64,000 nt of DNA, from the NCBI GenBank assembly GCA_016938695.1, contig JAFGUC010000024.1, forward strand, positions 186,001-250,000, read 5' to 3'. The notes beneath the pieces are model-generated. The model was not told the DNA's origin, did not search any database, and saw only the letters and a list, made by a program, of their open reading frames with translations. Position 1 is the stretch's first letter; the number at the start of each line of letters is the position of its first letter. Shown here piece by piece: positions 54,047 to 64,000 of this stretch. The stretch is from Candidatus Woesearchaeota archaeon (lineage in GTDB: Archaea > Nanobdellota > Nanobdellia > Woesearchaeales > JAFGUC01). Both the position numbers and the translations under genes were made by a program.

Positions 54047-54265
54047 ATGATTTTTGGCGTAAGAGTTAAACCAAATTCTAGTAAAACTGAAGTTATAAGT
54101 TTTGATGAGAATAAAAATGAGTATCTTGTTTCAGTTTCATCACCTCCTGTAGATGGAAAAGCGAATTTAGCACTAGAGAAACTATTTTCAAAAATTCTTA
54201 AAAAACCTGTTAAAATAAAATCAGGTAGAACTTCAAAAATGAAGATTTTCGAGACGAAAGATTAA
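54047..54265 (+). CDS. DUF167/YggU family protein
   Basis: The 72-aa protein has the family features VRVKPNSSKTEV, an SPPVDGKANLALEKLFSK core and VKIKSGRTSKMKIF. Members are small conserved proteins of uncertain role. Start at the first ATG, with TTTAATATATG directly before it (TATA-like TTTAAATC is further upstream). Confidence 0.88.
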   Translation: MIFGVRVKPNSSKTEVISFDENKNEYLVSVSSPPVDGKANLALEKLFSKILKKPVKIKSGRTSKMKIFETKD

Positions 54266-54365: not shown

Positions 54366-57300
54366 GTGAATTTATTCTGTACTGCTAAGCCTAGTCAGCA
54401 AGCATTTACTAGACTTCTTTTGAGTTTTATTTCAATTGTGTTGTTATTTTCAACTTTCAATGTTGTAGCATACCATGATCCTATCGAAGATTCAATTGAA
54501 CACGTTTATAATTTCTCACAAGACGTCAAGAATGATTTTGATAATTTTGTATCAACCCACGACAATCTCTCATTAAATATTTACGAAGATAAAGAATTAC
54601 TTGAAATTTTAGATTCATATTTTGGAAAAGATGTTGTTGTTTCTGTAATTGACTTAACCTCTCAAACCTTACTATATCATCCTACTCCTGATTATGGTCG
54701 TAGAGTTTTCGATGTTATGGCGCAAGACCCTCTGATGAAAGAGTATTGTGATAGTCTAAAATCTAATTCTATATCTAACTTTCCAACATTAATTGACATG
54801 TATGATTTTGAACGAAACGCGAAAGTATTACGCATTACCAACATAATAAAAACCAATAGAACTCTTGAAGGGCATGCAATTGGAATTTGTGTGAGTGATG
54901 TATATGACGAGTTTCTTCACGACGATTTTTCAATGGAATTAAAATTAGAGAGTTTCTTAAAAATTAAATCTTATTTTTTGAAAAAAGATGCTGAATTTTT
55001 ATTAAGCAAATATCCGGGCATGTCTTTTTCAGAAATAATCGCTAAAGAAAATTTAGAGTCTCATTTTACTTCAAAAATTGGAATTACTGGTTATACTTTC
55101 GTTCTCGATGATAATCTTGTACTGGCACATCCAAACTCTGATTTTATCAATAACGAGATTTATGATTTAGATGAATATAAATTATTTTCTAACCAATTAA
55201 ACGATATATTGCAAACAAATAAATCCGAATTTTTTATAAGTTATACATGGAAATTTGGAATGATTCCAAAAACAAAATTCGCATATGGACATATTTTAAA
55301 GTTGCCTAATTCTTCTGAGAAATTAATTCTCTGCGCATCAGGAAATGCGGATGAAGTTGATTCAATTGTTTCAGCAAATGTTGCAGACTTAAAAACAAAC
55401 TCTGTCAAGTTTAAAATTTTATCAGTTGCTCAACAGGTATCAGATTATATTTCTGAAAATCCCTCAAAAACCCTTCAAGATTTACTAGACGATAATAAAT
55501 TTAGACAAATTGCAATTAAACAAATAGGTATGTCTGGATTTACAGGGATTGCTGATTCAGAAACAAGAACAGTTAGGCTATCTAAAGATATCGTGTATGA
55601 GGGTGTTGGAATTGATATCTTTAGTTCCAATAATTTAGAACTAGTTTCATTAATTGATAGTGCTGATACTTTTGGTGAAAGTTCAGGAACTATTTTTTGG
55701 TCGGACATTAGAACAGGATTTTCTAAAAATTTATACCTATATATAAAAAAACTAGACGTCAAAACTGCAGATGGATACACTCTAGGTGTATTTGGAAGAA
55801 TTGATTTTGATGAACTGTCTGAAGTTAACTTACAATCAAATGATTTATTTGTGAATCCCAATTTTCTTCGTGAAATAGCATTAGAAAAAGTTCAAGAGCT
55901 AAATTACCAAATTAATTTATACAAACAAAAAATAAAATCAATAGCTCGAAACAATGTTCTTACATCAAATTTACTAGCAATTGAAAAAGATTCAATACTA
56001 TTAAATGATTCAGAAAATCTAAAAATATTTCCAAATAATGAAACTTTATATTCTGAGTTAAAGAATTATTTGTCAGGAGTTAGTTCTGAATTTAATGATG
56101 AGGTCACAATACGTCTTCATCATAATTCAGGAATTGGTATATTTGGTTTAAATAACGGTGTTGAAATAACTAAGGAGTGTAAAAATCATAATTTTTGGTT
56201 TAATAAGGTTTTGAATAATTTCAAACAGGAAAATACCGATGTTTTTTTAACAACAGGGTTTTCAAATTATACCAAAAAACCAAGTATACGATTTTCATAT
56301 CCAGTAAAATATCGAGATTCTGTCCTTGGAATTTTCACAATGAATTTTAATATTGTAGATTTCTTTAACAATATATTCCCAAGAAATTCAAATGAATTTA
56401 GATACTTAATTGTTGAAACGAACTTTGAAGATTCTAAAGGAAATAGTGTTGGCGATTTTTCGATTTTGTATGACTCAGATAATGCTACTAATCCAATAGA
56501 AATACAATTACAATCTAGTTCATTAAATGGAAATTCAGGAACAATAGAAATAACATATAACCGTCTTTTGACTTTGAGTTCATATAGTAAAGTTTCTTTA
56601 GATGATAATAACATATACCTTTTACTCATTCCAAAAAAAACACCATTTTCATTAGAAGATACAAACATTCGTTTTTTTAATAATTTGTTTGTAAAATTTA
56701 ATTTTTTAAAAATTGCAATAATCTTTATTGAATTTACTATATATTTATTCTTAATTTTTTCTGTTAACCAAGATGATGCAAGCAAAAAGAGTATTAGAAA
56801 TAAATTTATATGGATGTTTTCATTTGGAATACTTATAACACTTCTTGATTTCATAAGCTCATTATTTTCAAATGCAATGTTTGATCTTATTTCAAAACGC
56901 GTTACATTATTTCTAATTGTAGGAATAATATATTTTTTAATTTTAATTTTAATTAATTTTGATACTAATAAACCAAAATTTATTTCACGAATATATCGTT
57001 ATTACAAAACTTTCACTTTCTTGTTCTTATTCTCTACTTTTATATTGTGTACTTTCACAAATCTTATTTTTAAGGTACCTGACAAAACGGAATTGAGTGC
57101 AGGAAGTATGTTCTATTTTTTTGTTGGAATTATTATTCTTGTTTTGCTCTTTGTTTTATTTTATATTATTTTCAAAATATTAAAAAAAGAATTAGATAAA
57201 AGTTTCTTTGTTGCTACAGCAGGAATTTTTTTAAATTTGGTTTTGTTAACTGTAGGGCATTTATTACATTTTTCTTATAGTAATACACAAAAGATTTTTG

Positions 57301-59624
57301 CTTTCGTACTTGTAATTTCAATTGTTTGGAGTTTATTTAAATTTGAAGTCTTGAAGATTAAGAATTATACTGTCTTTATGTTGACTGCAACTGTTTTTAG
57401 TTTGATGATTTTCTTTAGTTTATCAAACGGATTGTTTAGTTTATATAACTTAGAACAATCTCAATTAAAAAGCTATTCGAATGACAGAATGAGATCTTTA
57501 GACGAAAAGTATGACTCTTTCGCAATGATGTATAATTCAGTTAATTCTGAGATATTTTATCTATCAAAAACTATTGCTAGAGATGTTTTTGATTACGAAG
57601 ATTTAATAACATTTAGCTATAATGTTAGAAGTTCAAACTCTCCTATATTGGACATAAAATTCTATGATTCAGAAAATAAATTAATATTTAACTATCCAGA
57701 GGGATATCAAAATATTGATTCTGATATGATATTATTGAATATGCCTTTTGAGAGAAAAACAAAAAACATTTTTACAAATAGTTCTTCGGATTTATCCTTT
57801 AGTATATATAATCCAATATTGTCTAGCTCAAAATTTTTAGGAACATTAATTTATGATATAAGAGTTTCAGAAAGTAATAATTTTTTTAATTGTCATATAG
57901 ACGATTCTGAAAATTTCATGATATATAATGACCAAATAAATCCTGTAATATCCTGTAATAATATTGTTAACAATGAATTCAATGATATTTTGGCTGAAAA
58001 AATTACAGAAATATCCAAACAAGGTTTTGCAACATCTGCCCTATTTAAGATTAATGGAACAAACTATTTGTTATCATATCTTCCAGCAGTTTTTGATGAT
58101 ACTGTTTTCCATTTTGTCATTCTTAGCGATTTGAGTAATCTGTATTCTGAGATGAAAAAAAGTAAAGATGAAATATGGAACGTTACATTTTTGTCAATCT
58201 TGATTTCAATAGGATTTGGAATAGTTGTGAACTTACTATTAACCAGAACACTTAGGTTCGAAATAGATTCAAAAACCGAGAGAATACGAGATCTAAACAA
58301 ACATCTTCAAAAGATGGTTAATGATAAAACCAAAGAATTAGAAAATACTAATTTAGAATTAAAAAAATCTAACGAAAACCTCGATAAGGAAGTAAAACAT
58401 CGTACAATAGAATTGAACAAGAAAGTAACTGATTTGGAAAATATGAAATCTGCTCTTTTGAATATTATGGAAGATTTACGAGAAACAGTAGAAGATTATA
58501 ATGAAAGCCGTAAAAAATACAAACTCATAGTTGACAATATGAACGATGTACTTTATATGGTTGATTTTAATGACAAAATATTGTCTGTAAGTAAGAACAT
58601 TAAACAGTTATTAGGTTACTCTCCTTCTGAACTAATGGGAAAGCCTATTACTATTGTAGAACCAGATGCATCTGAATCTTCAAAATTAAAAAACAAATTA
58701 CTGACCAAAAAATCATTACAGTACGCAACAAAACATAAGACCAGAACAGGTAGATTAATTGATGTGAGTGTTAGTTCAAGAGTTGTATCTTCATCAGGCT
58801 TAGGTTTAATTCAATCAATTGTAAGAGATATTTCTGCTCAGAAAAAAACAGAAGAAAAAATAATTAAATTAAACAAGAATCTTGAGAGAAAAGTTGAAGA
58901 ACGAACAAAAAAATTAACAGCAGCAAACGAGAAAGTACAAAAGTTATTCAATTTACGTTCTCAGTTTGTAAATCAAGTGGCGCACGATTTAAGAACACCA
59001 ATGACTCCTATTTTGGGTTTAATTCCACTAATCAGGTCAAAAGTTAAAGACAAAAATTCACTTGAACAAATTAATATGGTTGAAAATAACGCAAGATATC
59101 TATCAGAATTAATAAATAAGACCCTTGATATTTCTCGTCTAGATGCAGGAAAATTAAAATTAAATAAAGAAAAAGTCGAAATGTCTCAACTGCTTAAAGA
59201 CTTCATACGAAACAGTGATGAATTATTCAAGCAAAACAAAATAAAAGTCTCATTGAATATTGAATCCAAAGCGAAGAATACTGTTTTTGCAGATAAAATG
59301 CGAATTAATGAAATCTTATTTAACCTAGTTTCTAACGCATCTAAATTTATGCCAAATAAAAAAGAATTAATATTTACACTTAACGTTAAATCTTCTAAAG
59401 TATTTTTATCCGTAAAAGATTCTGGAATTGGAATATCTAAAGAACACATCAAGAAAATATTCGAAGAATTTTATCAAGTGGATACTTCAGGTCACTCTCA
59501 TTCCGCAGGATTAGGACTTGCAATTTCAAAAAGAATTATTGAGTTACATGGTGGTAAAATCTGGGCAGAAAGTGATGGGGTGAACATGGGAACAACATTT
59601 ACATTTTCCCTTCCAAAAAAATAA
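54366..59624 (+). CDS. Giant membrane sensor histidine kinase (multi-Cache, central multi-pass region, PAS)
   Basis: The 1752-aa kinase begins with a helix (14-36), then an extracellular part to about 770 with at least four Cache-like stretches (for example GITGYTFVLDDN at 240-250 and GMSGFTGIADS at 388-398). Seven to eight hydrophobic segments fill about 778-1022, a second extracellular sensor 1023-1270 precedes one more helix (1273-1293), then a coiled coil (1300-1380), PAS (1385-1490), HisKA with H1540 in VAHDLRTP, and HATPase with NLVSNASKF, DSGIGIS and GLGLAISKRI. Such size is rare in archaea. The GTG at 54366 sits five bases after GAGGTG. The next gene is a receiver, the likely target. 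Confidence 0.9.
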   Translation: MNLFCTAKPSQQAFTRLLLSFISIVLLFSTFNVVAYHDPIEDSIEHVYNFSQDVKNDFDNFVSTHDNLSLNIYEDKELLEILDSYFGKDVVVSVIDLTSQTLLYHPTPDYGRRVFDVMAQDPLMKEYCDSLKSNSISNFPTLIDMYDFERNAKVLRITNIIKTNRTLEGHAIGICVSDVYDEFLHDDFSMELKLESFLKIKSYFLKKDAEFLLSKYPGMSFSEIIAKENLESHFTSKIGITGYTFVLDDNLVLAHPNSDFINNEIYDLDEYKLFSNQLNDILQTNKSEFFISYTWKFGMIPKTKFAYGHILKLPNSSEKLILCASGNADEVDSIVSANVADLKTNSVKFKILSVAQQVSDYISENPSKTLQDLLDDNKFRQIAIKQIGMSGFTGIADSETRTVRLSKDIVYEGVGIDIFSSNNLELVSLIDSADTFGESSGTIFWSDIRTGFSKNLYLYIKKLDVKTADGYTLGVFGRIDFDELSEVNLQSNDLFVNPNFLREIALEKVQELNYQINLYKQKIKSIARNNVLTSNLLAIEKDSILLNDSENLKIFPNNETLYSELKNYLSGVSSEFNDEVTIRLHHNSGIGIFGLNNGVEITKECKNHNFWFNKVLNNFKQENTDVFLTTGFSNYTKKPSIRFSYPVKYRDSVLGIFTMNFNIVDFFNNIFPRNSNEFRYLIVETNFEDSKGNSVGDFSILYDSDNATNPIEIQLQSSSLNGNSGTIEITYNRLLTLSSYSKVSLDDNNIYLLLIPKKTPFSLEDTNIRFFNNLFVKFNFLKIAIIFIEFTIYLFLIFSVNQDDASKKSIRNKFIWMFSFGILITLLDFISSLFSNAMFDLISKRVTLFLIVGIIYFLILILINFDTNKPKFISRIYRYYKTFTFLFLFSTFILCTFTNLIFKVPDKTELSAGSMFYFFVGIIILVLLFVLFYIIFKILKKELDKSFFVATAGIFLNLVLLTVGHLLHFSYSNTQKIFAFVLVISIVWSLFKFEVLKIKNYTVFMLTATVFSLMIFFSLSNGLFSLYNLEQSQLKSYSNDRMRSLDEKYDSFAMMYNSVNSEIFYLSKTIARDVFDYEDLITFSYNVRSSNSPILDIKFYDSENKLIFNYPEGYQNIDSDMILLNMPFERKTKNIFTNSSSDLSFSIYNPILSSSKFLGTLIYDIRVSESNNFFNCHIDDSENFMIYNDQINPVISCNNIVNNEFNDILAEKITEISKQGFATSALFKINGTNYLLSYLPAVFDDTVFHFVILSDLSNLYSEMKKSKDEIWNVTFLSILISIGFGIVVNLLLTRTLRFEIDSKTERIRDLNKHLQKMVNDKTKELENTNLELKKSNENLDKEVKHRTIELNKKVTDLENMKSALLNIMEDLRETVEDYNESRKKYKLIVDNMNDVLYMVDFNDKILSVSKNIKQLLGYSPSELMGKPITIVEPDASESSKLKNKLLTKKSLQYATKHKTRTGRLIDVSVSSRVVSSSGLGLIQSIVRDISAQKKTEEKIIKLNKNLERKVEERTKKLTAANEKVQKLFNLRSQFVNQVAHDLRTPMTPILGLIPLIRSKVKDKNSLEQINMVENNARYLSELINKTLDISRLDAGKLKLNKEKVEMSQLLKDFIRNSDELFKQNKIKVSLNIESKAKNTVFADKMRINEILFNLVSNASKFMPNKKELIFTLNVKSSKVFLSVKDSGIGISKEHIKKIFEEFYQVDTSGHSHSAGLGLAISKRIIELHGGKIWAESDGVNMGTTFTFSLPKK

Positions 59625-59686
59625 CAATGAAAATAGAAATTTTTAAATAGCTATGGGATTATATAAACTTAAAAGGTGGTGATTGA

Positions 59687-60061
59687 ATGGCTAAGATTTT
59701 AGTTGTTGATGACAATAAAGATATAACGTACACTGTTAAAAGTGTTTTGGAGAGTCAAGATAAAAGTATTTCTGTAGACGCAGTAAATAGCGGTGAGGAG
59801 TGTCTCAAGTATCTAAGTAATACCAAACCAGACATGATTCTAATGGACATAATGATGCCAGGAATGGACGGTATGGACACAGTAATCAAGATTAAAGAAA
59901 ACAAAGATAACAAAAAAATTCCAGTAATTTTTCTAACAGCAAAAACGGATAAATTAAGCAAAGGTATGGGTGCAATTTGTGGTGAAGATTACATTGAAAA
60001 ACCATTTGACTCTCAAGATTTATACAAACGAGTTTTAGATGTTATTAAGAAAAAAAAATAA
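59687..60061 (+). CDS. Single-domain response regulator (CheY-like receiver)
   Basis: A 124-aa receiver with acidic D8 and D9, the phosphorylation site D54 in LMDIMMPG, T84 and K105 in EKPF. There is no output domain, so it acts by binding another protein or by passing phosphate. A GGTGGTGAT ribosome site precedes the ATG. It lies 62 bases after the giant kinase, with TATA-like TTTTTAAATAG between them, so it may have its own promoter as well. Confidence 0.95.
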   Translation: MAKILVVDDNKDITYTVKSVLESQDKSISVDAVNSGEECLKYLSNTKPDMILMDIMMPGMDGMDTVIKIKENKDNKKIPVIFLTAKTDKLSKGMGAICGEDYIEKPFDSQDLYKRVLDVIKKKK

Positions 60062-60079
60062 ACGTGTAAGGTGCCTGGA

Positions 60080-60451
60080 ATGAAACAAGTTAGCGATTGG
60101 ATGAAATCCCCAGTATTGACAACTGATGGTGATACTAGTATTCTAGATGCTGCAAAAAAAATGCAAGTCAAGAAAAGCTCTTATATTGCAGTTCTAAATG
60201 GTAAAAAACCAGTTGGTCTATTAACTGATAAGGAATTAGTTAGTTTTGTATCTACAGACAAACTTCCAAGTAGCACAAAGGTAAAAGACGTTTCTAGTAA
60301 AAATTTTGTTACAGTCTCACCTGAAGATTCTATTCTTGATGTTTGTACAGTATTTAACACGAAGAACCTAACTCTTATGCTTGTAGTTAAAGATGACAAG
60401 TTAGTCGGTACTCTTAGTATGGGTGACATAATAAAAGGTTTAGTTGGATGA
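60080..60451 (+). CDS. CBS-domain pair protein
   Basis: Two CBS domains make up all 123 aa: VSDWMKSPVLTTDGDTSILDAAKKM with VGLLTDKELV, and VKDVSSKNFVTVSPEDSILDVC with VGTLSMGDIIKGL. Such Bateman modules bind adenine nucleotides. The ATG at 60080 has AAGGTG six bases upstream; an earlier GTG lies in that site. It follows the receiver by 18 bases and its stop overlaps the next gene as ATGA, so it belongs to the signalling operon and could sense energy state. Confidence 0.92.
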   Translation: MKQVSDWMKSPVLTTDGDTSILDAAKKMQVKKSSYIAVLNGKKPVGLLTDKELVSFVSTDKLPSSTKVKDVSSKNFVTVSPEDSILDVCTVFNTKNLTLMLVVKDDKLVGTLSMGDIIKGLVG

Positions 60452-61428
60452 TTAGTACAGTTACTATGGTTGATTCTAATGCACTCAAAAAATCTTTAGT
60501 AGGGTTTATGAGTGAACACTTCGGGGATGTAATAGGTAAACAACTGTTATCTATGAAGCTTCTCCAGTACAAAAAGTTTGATTTAGATGAGTTTTCTGAT
60601 TACGAATTAAAAAGTTTTATTGATGTTCTAATTGATTCTTTGTTCGGCAAGATAAGAACTGATAGTCAAGTTAAGATGATCAAACTTGATTTGCTAAATA
60701 AGATTTTTGGTAAAGAAGAATCAATTAATGTAATGGCACAAGAACAAGATTCTGCCAAAGTAAAACCAATAGAGTTTTTGCAAGTATTGTTCGGTACTGA
60801 TTTAGGAAAATCTGTATTAAAGACTGCAAAAATGGAATTCAATGAACCTCATATTGAAACAGGTGATGAATTACAACAAATAATGTTTTTGAAAAGAGTA
60901 GTTGAAAAATTATTCAATTATGATGAAAATTTAAAAGATGATGTTGATGTTATGATGTTGTCTTTTGTGAAAAATGGCAAAGTTACACACAATGTTCTAG
61001 AAGAAGATGTAGATAAAAGAACTTTACATATGTTTGAAGATTTATTATTCTGGATTAGGGAATTTAATTCTGGAGATGTAGACTTAGCAATAAAAGGAAT
61101 ACATAATTTAAATATGGATGATACTCTTCGTAAAGATTTAGATGATCTTGAGATAAAAGTATTGGGTAAAGTTCAAAATGATGATGAACAAAGTCGTGCA
61201 AGTTCTATAGAAGTTTTTATAGCAGATTATCTTGGTTTAGATGGCGCTCATGAATTTATGGAACAAGAAAAAGCAAAATTTGATGTAAAAGAAATCTTGG
61301 CATTGCCTGAAGAGCAACAACATGAATTTATCGATGACTTTATGCATCAAGGTGTTTTAAATGAATACAGTCTTCAACGAAAAAAATACATGGTTGGGAA
61401 AATGCTGTCTTTCTTTGGTATGATTTAA
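60448..61428 (+). CDS. Unrecognised protein of the signalling operon
   Basis: The 326-aa soluble protein is helical and acidic, with no membrane segment, no catalytic motif I can name and no cysteine. Features: DALKKSLVGFMSEHFGDVIGKQLL-type start, a helical repeat-like series to about 200, and a C-terminal EQQHEFIDDFMHQGVLNEYSLQ. The start overlaps the CBS gene (ATGA), so it is made with the receiver and CBS protein. It might be the output or target of the receiver. A second in-frame ATG is six codons on. Confidence 0.7.
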   Translation: MISTVTMVDSNALKKSLVGFMSEHFGDVIGKQLLSMKLLQYKKFDLDEFSDYELKSFIDVLIDSLFGKIRTDSQVKMIKLDLLNKIFGKEESINVMAQEQDSAKVKPIEFLQVLFGTDLGKSVLKTAKMEFNEPHIETGDELQQIMFLKRVVEKLFNYDENLKDDVDVMMLSFVKNGKVTHNVLEEDVDKRTLHMFEDLLFWIREFNSGDVDLAIKGIHNLNMDDTLRKDLDDLEIKVLGKVQNDDEQSRASSIEVFIADYLGLDGAHEFMEQEKAKFDVKEILALPEEQQHEFIDDFMHQGVLNEYSLQRKKYMVGKMLSFFGMI

Positions 61429-61472: not shown

Positions 61473-62687
61473 ATGCAAGCGCTATGTATTAGATGTTTTG
61501 GGAAAGGTCTTTGTGGAAGACCAAGATGTCCTATACAAGCAAAAATAGCATTTCAAAAAACAACAACTTTTGAAAAAGATTTCCAAGGTACAAGTCCAGA
61601 TGTTTTTATTGGGCGGTTCGGTTATCCAAATATCAACGTTGGAATTCTTGCAACAAAAGATTATTCTCAAAATGATACTCCAACAAACTGGGGTAAAAGT
61701 AAAACACCAATTGAATCAATAATCCAAAAACGAGTTTCGTTAGTTAATTCTAGTTTTAATTCAAGAATAAAACCTACCGAACATCAACAAAACAGATTTC
61801 TTGAAACCGCACAAGAAATATCTTTATCACAAAAAGAGACTGACGTTGAAGTTAATCTAAACGATAGACCACATTTTAGATTGAGTTTCAATCAAGATAC
61901 TATGCCTCATGGTCCAAGAGAATTATTAAAAAAAGTTACAACAACATCAAATGTTAAAGTACCATTATCAGTAGATAAAGTAACAAGTGATGGGGATTTA
62001 ACATCCTTTCAAGGATTATCTATTCTATCACAAAAAGGATTTGACGAATACTACTTAACCAAAGTTTTTTCAGTTGGAAATTTAGGACTGTCCTCCGAAC
62101 GGAAACTTGTTCCAACAAGATGGAGTATTACTGCAGTTGATGATCTATTGGGTAAAGTAATACTTGATAAGTTAAAAGATTTTAAGGAGAATGACAGTTT
62201 CTTTTCTTTTTTTGGAGGACTGTCTGGAAATTATTATTTAATTTTATTTTTACCAGGAATATTTTCATACGAATTATTTGAAACTTATTTACCAAATACA
62301 ATTTGGAATGCACAAGAAGATGTCAGTTTTACAACTGATTACGAAGATTGTTTTGGTCGAAAAAAGTATGCTGAAAATACTTCAGGTGGATATTATGCTG
62401 CAAGACTTCCAATTTTACAATATTTTCAAGATAATAAAATCCAAGCACAAGTTTTAGTATTGAGATTTATTACTCCTGATTATTACGCGCCTCTAGGAGT
62501 ATGGTATTGTCGAGAAAGTGTGCGAGATTCGTTATCACAATCTAAGATAGATTTTTCATCTCGAGAATTACTATTATCGTATGCAACTAAGTTAATACAA
62601 AAGAAATTTTCATATTCAATTTCTAAAATATTACAACAAAGTAAACTGTTAAAGAGTACTCAACAGACATTATCCAAATTTATGTAA
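61473..62687 (+). CDS. NreA-like archaeal DNA repair protein with PCNA motif
   Basis: Nre proteins function in DNA repair with PCNA in archaea. The N-terminal zinc finger is C5xxC8, C14, C19 in CIRCFGKGLCGRPRC. The Nre_N and Nre_C regions follow (GRFGYPNINVG, DRPHFRLSFNQDTMPHGPRELL, TRWSITAVDD, GGYYAARLPIL). The last residues QQTLSKFM fit the PIP box QxxhxxF (Q397, L400, F403). At 404 aa it fits the family. Start ATG at 61473. It converges on the next gene with an 8-base overlap. Confidence 0.93.
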   Translation: MQALCIRCFGKGLCGRPRCPIQAKIAFQKTTTFEKDFQGTSPDVFIGRFGYPNINVGILATKDYSQNDTPTNWGKSKTPIESIIQKRVSLVNSSFNSRIKPTEHQQNRFLETAQEISLSQKETDVEVNLNDRPHFRLSFNQDTMPHGPRELLKKVTTTSNVKVPLSVDKVTSDGDLTSFQGLSILSQKGFDEYYLTKVFSVGNLGLSSERKLVPTRWSITAVDDLLGKVILDKLKDFKENDSFFSFFGGLSGNYYLILFLPGIFSYELFETYLPNTIWNAQEDVSFTTDYEDCFGRKKYAENTSGGYYAARLPILQYFQDNKIQAQVLVLRFITPDYYAPLGVWYCRESVRDSLSQSKIDFSSRELLLSYATKLIQKKFSYSISKILQQSKLLKSTQQTLSKFM

Positions 62688-64000
62688 TTAATTTATCTGC
62701 AATATCAACAAAAAATTCATTCTTGCCATAGAAGTCACATTTTCGTCCGAGTTTATCAACTATTGTTGCAGTAATCACAGTACGATATGTATTTTTTGGA
62801 ATATCTTCAATACTCACAAAGAAATTGTTTTCAGTAATTCTTGTTGCCTTTTTACTATATACCATACTACTATCTCTGTATAATTGTACTTCGACTTCAA
62901 TGTCTGGGCTACAGATAATATCAAACAATGTATCTGTTGAAGAATAATTATTTTCATAAACAAAAATCTCAATATCAAGATTAGTTTTATCTGTAAAAGT
63001 ATAAGATACATTGTCATATGTGATTCGAGTACTAATATTAAATGCATCTATAGAATAATCTTTGACAGAAACTTTCTTTGGAGATACTTCATTTAATTCA
63101 GCAGAGTTTTTAATAGTTAATTCCCCACAACCAAGAATCTCTTGAGAATTAGTAACGATTTTAGAGAATACGTTAGCGTCTTCTAAAGAAATAACATTGA
63201 TGCATAATCCTTGGTTTATAAATTGATTTACATAATTAATTATATTTTCAATTTCCGATTGTTTAGTTAGTCCTGAATATACAATTCCGTCACTGATTAT
63301 CGTAAGTTCTGCAACAACATTTTTTTTGGGTTCTGTAATATTAAAATCAACAAGTGTTTCATTAGTTCCATTAATAGAAATATTATTACTCTCTATTTTA
63401 ATTTCAGGTTTATTTATTTTTAATAGTTTAGTTGTGTTAATCAAATTAAATAATTTAATTATGTTAGAATTACCATCTAATGTAATTGAGCTTATTTTTT
63501 GAAGTGCATTTTCTTTAGAAATATCGATTCCAAGATTTTTAGATTCATCATTAAATGTAAGTATGCTTATCTTTTCAACATCTGAAACAATATATTTTGC
63601 AAGTCTTTTTGCATGCAATATTTTGTTTCCACTCATTCCAAGTGTGTTTTCAATAGCAATTATTTTTTTAGTATTGTTATCTGAAAAATGAATAATTTCA
63701 TCAACCGTGTTATGGCACGTTACATCAGTATATCCTTTATCTAGTCTTAGATAATACTCGTTACCTGACGTTATTACTTTGCTTTCTTTTAGTTCATCTT
63801 TTGTTTTGTATGTGACATACATACTTTTATTACCTGTATTGAAAAAAGTGAAATTAGCATATCTAGAGAAGTAATTTTCAGATGGCATTGTGCATCTTCC
63901 ATCATTCAAAATAATTAGTTGCTCTATTTGCAATGATTTTGCAATTGCATTTTGGTATTGTTCGCAAGTATAAGGGCATTGTAAAAATTCATCATTATCA
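62680..64000 (-). CDS. vWA-like surface protein, 5' end outside the window
   Basis: The frame stays open through the edge at 64000, so this is a C-terminal part of at least 439 residues. The visible part begins DNDEFLQCPYTC. About 120 residues in, a vWA-like fold is suggested by IIAIENTLGMSGNKILHAKRLA, ISILTF, LDGNSNIIKLFNLI and AELTIISDG, but the usual DxSxS reads ENTLG, so the metal site is degenerate although the late Asp (SDG) remains. The last 150 residues are beta-rich (Ig-like, FNISTRITYDN). Many Asn/Ser/Thr and NxS/T indicate an extracellular glycoprotein. A TTG at 63933 is not the real start. Confidence 0.65.
   Translation of the reverse strand, partial: DNDEFLQCPYTCEQYQNAIAKSLQIEQLIILNDGRCTMPSENYFSRYANFTFFNTGNKSMYVTYKTKDELKESKVITSGNEYYLRLDKGYTDVTCHNTVDEIIHFSDNNTKKIIAIENTLGMSGNKILHAKRLAKYIVSDVEKISILTFNDESKNLGIDISKENALQKISSITLDGNSNIIKLFNLINTTKLLKINKPEIKIESNNISINGTNETLVDFNITEPKKNVVAELTIISDGIVYSGLTKQSEIENIINYVNQFINQGLCINVISLEDANVFSKIVTNSQEILGCGELTIKNSAELNEVSPKKVSVKDYSIDAFNISTRITYDNVSYTFTDKTNLDIEIFVYENNYSSTDTLFDIICSPDIEVEVQLYRDSSMVYSKKATRITENNFFVSIEDIPKNTYRTVITATIVDKLGRKCDFYGKNEFFVDIADKLIT

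Follow-up and report, generated by a model that had tools for sequence, protein, structure and literature searches.

How does a receiver domain that stands alone, with no output domain attached, hand on the signal that it receives? The question is raised by an operon in a 64,000-nucleotide stretch of DNA, hereafter the window, from a Candidatus Woesearchaeota archaeon of the order Woesearchaeales (assembly GCA_016938695.1, contig JAFGUC010000024.1, positions 186,001 to 250,000). According to the part of the survey by Galperin et al. (2018) drawn on here, most archaeal stand-alone receivers lie outside any conserved neighbourhood, their functions could not be inferred, and the complete Nanoarchaeota genomes then known contained zero two-component systems (PMC5847659). 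The receiver of the window resembles the surveyed ones in its single domain, its full active site and the lack of an output domain. In contrast to most of them, it precedes two genes that are paired elsewhere in the order, one encoding two CBS domains and the other a repeated four-helix domain similar to STAC (SLC and two-component associated component; Af1502, CbrA and CrbS). This CBS/STAC-like pair behind a lone receiver is the main finding of the analysis, while the large kinase at the head of the operon is impressive yet ordinary for its order. No paper on CBS pairs together with STAC was found in the literature searched.

The operon and a recurrent gene pair

The four-gene signalling operon proposed in the preliminary description of this DNA is real; its parts are known and their arrangement is new. 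All four open reading frames were found on the forward strand, and their assignment is based on Pfam matches together with hydropathy and motifs for a sensor histidine kinase of 1752 residues with a GTG start (54366-59624), on Pfam and conserved residues for a stand-alone CheY-like receiver of 124 residues (59687-60061), on Pfam and motifs for a CBS-domain pair of 126 residues (60071-60451), and on a hidden Markov model built without the window sequence and an AlphaFold2 model for a 326-residue protein in which three STAC-like repeats of four helices are accompanied by a helical spacer (60448-61428). The kinase and receiver genes are separated by 62 nt; the short gaps and the overlap reported for the downstream genes amount to 9 nt from the receiver gene to the CBS gene and to a 4-nt ATGA overlap between the CBS gene and the last one.

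The receiver, also described before as lacking an output domain, consists of a single Response_reg domain (Pfam, 6.3e-26) in which all phosphorylation residues are kept (D8/D9, D54, T84 and K105). A search of all contigs of the genome (1.5 Mb in 85 contigs, listed contamination 5.4%, with the window on the 513-kb contig C70) returned two receivers, namely that of the window and a LytTR-type regulator which adjoins a LytS-like kinase on a contig of 3.8 kb (G000:C3, L002). In our judgement this small contig reads like bacterial contamination, and the receiver of the window looks to be the sole archaeal one of the genome. Across the order, 236 of the 352 genomes searched encode a receiver that passes the Pfam cut-off.

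The protein encoded next matches Pfam CBS (3.4e-23) in two stretches, that is, it holds two CBS domains in one short chain. The second copy fits the ribose motif GhxS/TxxD (GTLSMGD), and the first has E in the place of D (GLLTDKE). These motifs suggest a nucleotide ligand; the link to nucleotide level put forward earlier may be retained as a suggestion of the CBS motifs.

The 326-residue protein had been regarded as novel. It has nothing above the Pfam cut-off and nothing in NCBIfam, but it is not one novel fold: judged from its sequence, it is composed of three copies of a four-helix domain of about 80 residues that resembles STAC. The hidden Markov model scores 45.5 bits on repeat 1 (residues 11-92; 60478-60723), 13.3 bits on the partial repeat 2 (residues 107-157; 60766-60918) and 20.5 bits on repeat 3 (residues 256-319; 61213-61404), all on the forward strand, and these values were reached by 0, 1 and 0 of 2000 shuffles, respectively. 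The spacer at residues 166-245 holds no repeat copy (368 of 2000 shuffles reach its score). In the AlphaFold2 model of repeat 1, with a predicted local distance difference test score (pLDDT) mostly of 83-95, four helices (10-25, 27-40, 51-66 and 72-87) form two hairpins around a middle loop of 10 residues (41-50).

As a whole chain, the protein has few relatives. A single-sequence search of 279 genomes of the phylum matched 2 of them, its own included, and the other match is a repeated domain of about 80 residues directly behind a CBS pair; a further collection of genome contigs gave no relative of the whole protein, and the family is visible at domain level only. Profile searches, from which matches with E above 1e-4 were dropped, yielded ten STAC-like loci, spread over seven genomes of this order: two each in the own genome (G000), G233 and G094, and one each in G202, G214, G473 and G476. 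Leave-one-out models find every domain member, and a five-member profile without the window protein retrieves it from 4572 frames with E 6.5e-7. With a wider profile (A6) and 249 genomes of the class, the convincing matches were the own-genome copies only. Ten weak matches of one profile search were all inspected and rejected, as they overlap DnaG, a HerA-like ATPase and other unrelated open reading frames. Among eleven weak rows of another search, L027, L032, L033 and L039 (identical to L059) were dropped on inspection and L038 proved real; L028-L031, L034 and L035, whose proteins were not opened, stand outside the locus count.

The claim that the CBS pair and the 326-residue protein belong together is borne out by gene order. 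At five of the ten loci, distributed over four genomes of four families, the STAC-like domain lies directly behind a CBS-pair gene, at -4 (window), +3 (L015), +1 (G233:C186), 0 (G094:C1) and +4 nt (G202) from the CBS stop codon. A hand count gave 7, 7, 8 and 8 CBS genes in G000, G233, G094 and G202 (30 in total); at 7.5 CBS genes in each genome, and assuming 1400 genes per genome, the chance of five CBS-linked loci out of ten is about 1e-9. The recurrence of this pairing across families of the order is well supported by the positions of the genes. It includes a second CBS-pair/STAC-like pair in the own genome (L015; G000:C70, about 486.6-487.2 kb; 1483-1878 and 1882-2163), 240 kb away and with no receiver beside it.

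At three other loci (G214, G473 and G476) the STAC-like domain forms the beginning of a protein that also has a CheX-like region. These regions score 0.012 in G214 and 0.0033 in G473 against Pfam CheX, both below the cut-off, and that of G476, with no match, was assigned by eye. The motif [DS]xxxExxN, a signature of CheX and CheC, is kept in G214 and G473 and not in G476; the same two proteins carry a weak second STAC-like copy at the C terminus. The regions joined to the domain in these three relatives are similar to the CheX/CheC/FliY receiver phosphatases, whereas the 326-residue protein has neither the CheX domain nor the motif. In addition, the domain closes a protein with multiple transmembrane segments at L038 and at L060 forms the start of a helical protein that runs off its contig, while the CBS-linked copies in G233 and G094 are followed by a transmembrane segment, as seen by eye.

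The preliminary description had taken the CBS and 326-residue genes for the downstream pathway of the receiver. This part of it stands on narrower ground, in that the expected co-occurrence is found for the CBS partner and much less for the receiver, whose gene adjoins the STAC-like domain at one of the ten loci, that of the window; in favour are the present operon and the three CheX-like fusions, the latter being counted as a link to receivers because CheX is a receiver-phosphatase fold. Besides the single adjacency, two further observations weigh against the pathway. Firstly, the last three genes may be carried on a transcript of their own, separate from the kinase, because the 62-nt gap 3' of the kinase contains A/T-rich, TATA-like stretches (by eye); in scans for consensus promoters and terminators, the sequence did not exceed shuffled controls. 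Secondly, CheW and CheX have no match in the own genome, and there is no known output.

In an alternative reading, the CBS-pair and STAC-like genes make up a separate module that responds to nucleotides on its own, with a membrane transporter as its possible target; it would share with the receiver just a transcript, the partners of the receiver lying elsewhere. Of the five CBS-linked loci, four lack an adjoining receiver, and the second pair of the own genome stands alone. In G094 the adaptor is anchored in the membrane, and the CBS gene begins 3 nt after a gene for a membrane protein of the MarC family; moreover, two papers tie STAC to transport (PMC4834066, PMC5715377). Nevertheless, the receiver that lies 9 nt before the CBS gene is the only archaeal-looking one of the genome, and fusion of the same domain to CheX-like regions at three loci points back to receivers. 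On balance, the self-contained module is quite possible, if short of probable.

Resemblance to STAC

Af1502 of Archaeoglobus is described as a domain of 68 residues with four helices in two hairpins, which has the motif LGPx(x)A in common with its kin and is difficult to find by sequence search (PMC4834066). It is also the best match of the window repeat in structure comparison with VIA (PDB 5a1q; Z 5.7, root-mean-square deviation 3.0 over 69 of 69 residues, 17% identity). With the model of the 326-residue protein, Foldseek places Af1502 second (E 3.1, probability 0.57) and gives no match under E 0.001. At the level of sequence, the five-member profile that excludes the window lists Af1502 at E 0.011, behind three Protein A constructs only, and another profile lists it at 0.26. 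The Protein A match itself, with E down to 1e-9, was rejected as a repeat artefact, in which a stretch of 20-30 residues is summed over repeats, single repeats having E 3 or worse in the alignments shown. The turn between helices 1 and 2 reads [FL]Gxx(x)[GA] in ten of the eleven copies, at the position of the LGPx(x)A of STAC.

The likeness to STAC comprises a stand-alone or fused four-helix domain with two hairpins, a middle loop of similar length (10 residues in the window repeat, nine in STAC), a turn of small residues between helices 1 and 2 and, as for Af1502, start-to-stop coupling to a signalling gene. The differences are the lack of the conserved proline, the presence of up to three copies per protein and the fusions, in archaea, to a CheX-like region or to a multi-transmembrane protein. 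The partner differs as well. The Af1502 gene shares an operon with a transporter gene and with that of the receptor Af1503, to which it is coupled in translation (PMC4834066), and an Af1503-like receptor or SLC5-type symporter is the usual companion of STAC. This context was not encountered at the ten loci, where the partner is instead the CBS-pair gene at half of them and, in one case, a fused multi-transmembrane protein; for this reason the domain is named STAC-like rather than STAC. All considered, we regard its identity with STAC as probable.

Several results weigh against that identity. A VIA Z of 5.7 falls in the range in which the tool warns of a mere common arrangement of helices. Af1502 appears in two of six sequence-profile lists and is absent up to E 10 from the other four, and profile A8 lists several CheY chains (E 0.2-1.4) close behind its Af1502 match. 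The conserved proline of STAC is present in none of the eleven copies, and repeats 2 and 3 of the AlphaFold2 model have pLDDT under 65. The VIA and Foldseek values, the absence of Af1502 from four lists, the missing proline and the lack of a Pfam or NCBIfam match speak for an explanation in which the four-helix domain is an unrelated small helical adaptor of the order and its match to Af1502 a coincidence between common folds. We consider this explanation unlikely, as 5a1q is the best match by structure and, Protein A chains aside, the best by one profile, with the hairpin turn in register.

Among the flanking genes, an open reading frame of 72 residues directly upstream of the kinase (54047-54264) encodes what we take to be a DUF167/YggU protein. 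Downstream, the archaeal gene Nre (61473-62687) starts 44 nt after the 326-residue gene, and a 417-residue protein on the reverse strand (62680-63933) has zero Pfam matches at E up to 1. Nre and a STAC-like gene are immediate neighbours in two genomes, each from a different family; Nre lies downstream in the window and upstream in G476 (L061 7079-9043). An action of the operon on DNA repair or replication by way of Nre is very improbable: two of the ten loci lie beside Nre (chance 2e-4, calculated post hoc), the STAC-like/CheX-like gene of G476 starting 39 nt after it, but the other eight lie away from it, the gene order is opposite in the two, and no DNA-contacting domain is present.

The giant kinase and its relatives

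By hydropathy, the kinase comprises a transmembrane segment (residues 17-35), 738 external residues (36-773), eight transmembrane segments within 774-1020, a second external part (1021-1272) and a last transmembrane segment (1273-1291), in agreement with the roughly 735 external residues, the central multi-helix region and the second external sensor originally described. The PAS and HisKA/HATPase end was likewise recovered with Pfam (PAS_9, 3.1e-10, residues 1384-1490; HisKA, 7.4e-13, residues 1531-1595; HATPase_c, 4.9e-25, residues 1643-1751). The catalytic residues are intact, with H1540, the G1 box DSGIGI and the G2 box GLGLAI, the N box being visible only in alignment, and both proteins carry the residues by which HisKA-type two-component kinases and receivers are recognised. 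Since both are intact, phosphotransfer from kinase to receiver is very likely. A search with HATPase_c found three further HisKA kinases in the genome (516, 511 and 576 residues), whose identity to the window kinase in the catalytic part is 47-49% for two of them (over 257-260 residues) and 33% for the third. The simplest reading would be that several kinases converge on a single receiver.

The external parts had been called Cache-like, a view that proved correct for the fold of one module, though no Pfam Cache family is found in the window kinase at E up to 1; its relatives carry dCache_1 or dCache_3 in other regions. With residues 1-1295 as query, 20 of the 352 genomes of the order were matched (own included), nearly all at residues 340-490. 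This segment corresponds to module C (residues 336-500; 55371-55865, forward strand), with relatives in 19 other genomes. A hidden Markov model of these relatives, with the window left out, scores 86.4 bits on module C and 33.9 bits on module B (residues 190-335; 54933-55370, forward strand). Because both score above all of 300 shuffles with the same model, B and C are seen as tandem copies of one sensor family, B being the divergent one. Module A (36-189) scored 3.2 bits and was discounted, and modules D (501-770) and E (1025-1272) gave no match to this model. An AlphaFold2 model of residues 190-505, built from a 23-row alignment, has pLDDT mostly of 86-98 in module C and mostly of 42-79 in module B. 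Compared with solved structures in VIA, modelled module C reaches Z 15.1 (3lib), 14.4 (4k08, single-Cache) and 14.0 (5g4y), most rows being Cache or related extracellular sensor domains, and Foldseek retrieves Cache domains of chemoreceptors and kinases at E 3.6e-7. In its model, then, module C has the Cache fold.

As for size, the kinase is the longest among those examined, in a survey that covered part of the kinases of the order, but it is not as extraordinary as first supposed. Five related kinases scanned with Pfam (L119, L120, L122, L123 and L124) measure 1072-1427 residues and share with it external sensors, several transmembrane segments, the kinase core and the module-C family; the window kinase differs in being longer and in having a PAS domain. 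Four of the five (all except L124) adjoin stand-alone receivers, as in the window. The combination of a large multi-sensor kinase with a neighbouring lone receiver is therefore a recurrent one in the order, where size alone is unexceptional. At those four loci the receiver is accompanied by a KaiC/DUF835/DUF7504-like protein of about 175 residues (two such proteins were scanned), with the receiver and KaiC/DUF835-like genes of L119 and L120 on the strand opposite to the kinase. The window operon has instead the CBS pair and the STAC-like protein. This small KaiC/DUF835/DUF7504-like protein is a recurring neighbour of stand-alone receivers and giant kinases in its own right. The giant kinases at L123 (4902-8120) and L124 (2175-6458) have, by Pfam, an external SBP_bac_3 solute-binding domain in addition to the shared sensor module.

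The sensor family of the kinase also occurs in short membrane receptors with no effector end (L125 923-1867, L132 5165-6106, L131 1493-2425 and L128 7067-8044). L125, the only one of the four scanned with Pfam, carries a HAMP domain, and all are reminiscent of Af1503-like receptors. No STAC-like neighbour was seen at these four, and none of the six module-C loci examined, mostly such effectorless receptors and one of them cut by the contig, has a STAC-like open reading frame directly behind it.

A putative output by protein contact

For the operon as a whole, we propose that a CBS-pair/STAC-like unit has been recruited behind a lone receiver to give a nucleotide-gated output by protein-protein contact, a proposal whose chances seem about even. 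An external ligand bound to the Cache modules would set the activity of the kinase, from which the receiver would accept a phosphoryl group; the other three orphan kinases of the genome would signal through this one receiver as well. Once phosphorylated, the receiver may dock on the triple STAC-like protein, which would also bind the CBS pair. This docking is the weakest step, suggested by one adjacency and three CheX-like fusions. Gating might fall to the CBS pair, with the competence of the complex depending on whether an adenine nucleotide or similar ligand is bound to it. By analogy with STAC elsewhere, the output would be a contact with another protein, probably a membrane protein or transporter, and not DNA binding.

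The role of STAC is called unknown in the cited parts of two papers (PMC5715377, PMC9100948), the first of which describes the domain as occurring alone or in multidomain proteins and states that Archaea lack signalling proteins that contain it. Should the identity with STAC hold, the CheX-like and multi-transmembrane fusions reported here would be archaeal multidomain STAC proteins. In any case, the present loci associate the STAC-like domain with CBS proteins, show it fused to CheX-like regions and include a protein with three copies of it.

A more general proposal, possible but doubtful, is that the woesearchaeal CBS pair and STAC-like adaptor form a nucleotide-gated docking platform for phosphorylated stand-alone receivers, and that in archaea STAC serves generally as a receiver/CBS adaptor, a role older and broader than the one it has with transporter-kinases in bacteria. 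If true, one receiver would gather the signals of several kinases, to be read out by protein contact without a DNA-binding regulator. In a genome with a single receiver, the CBS/STAC-like pair provides a short list of candidate receiver partners and, with it, a clue to the target to which lone receivers direct their signal.

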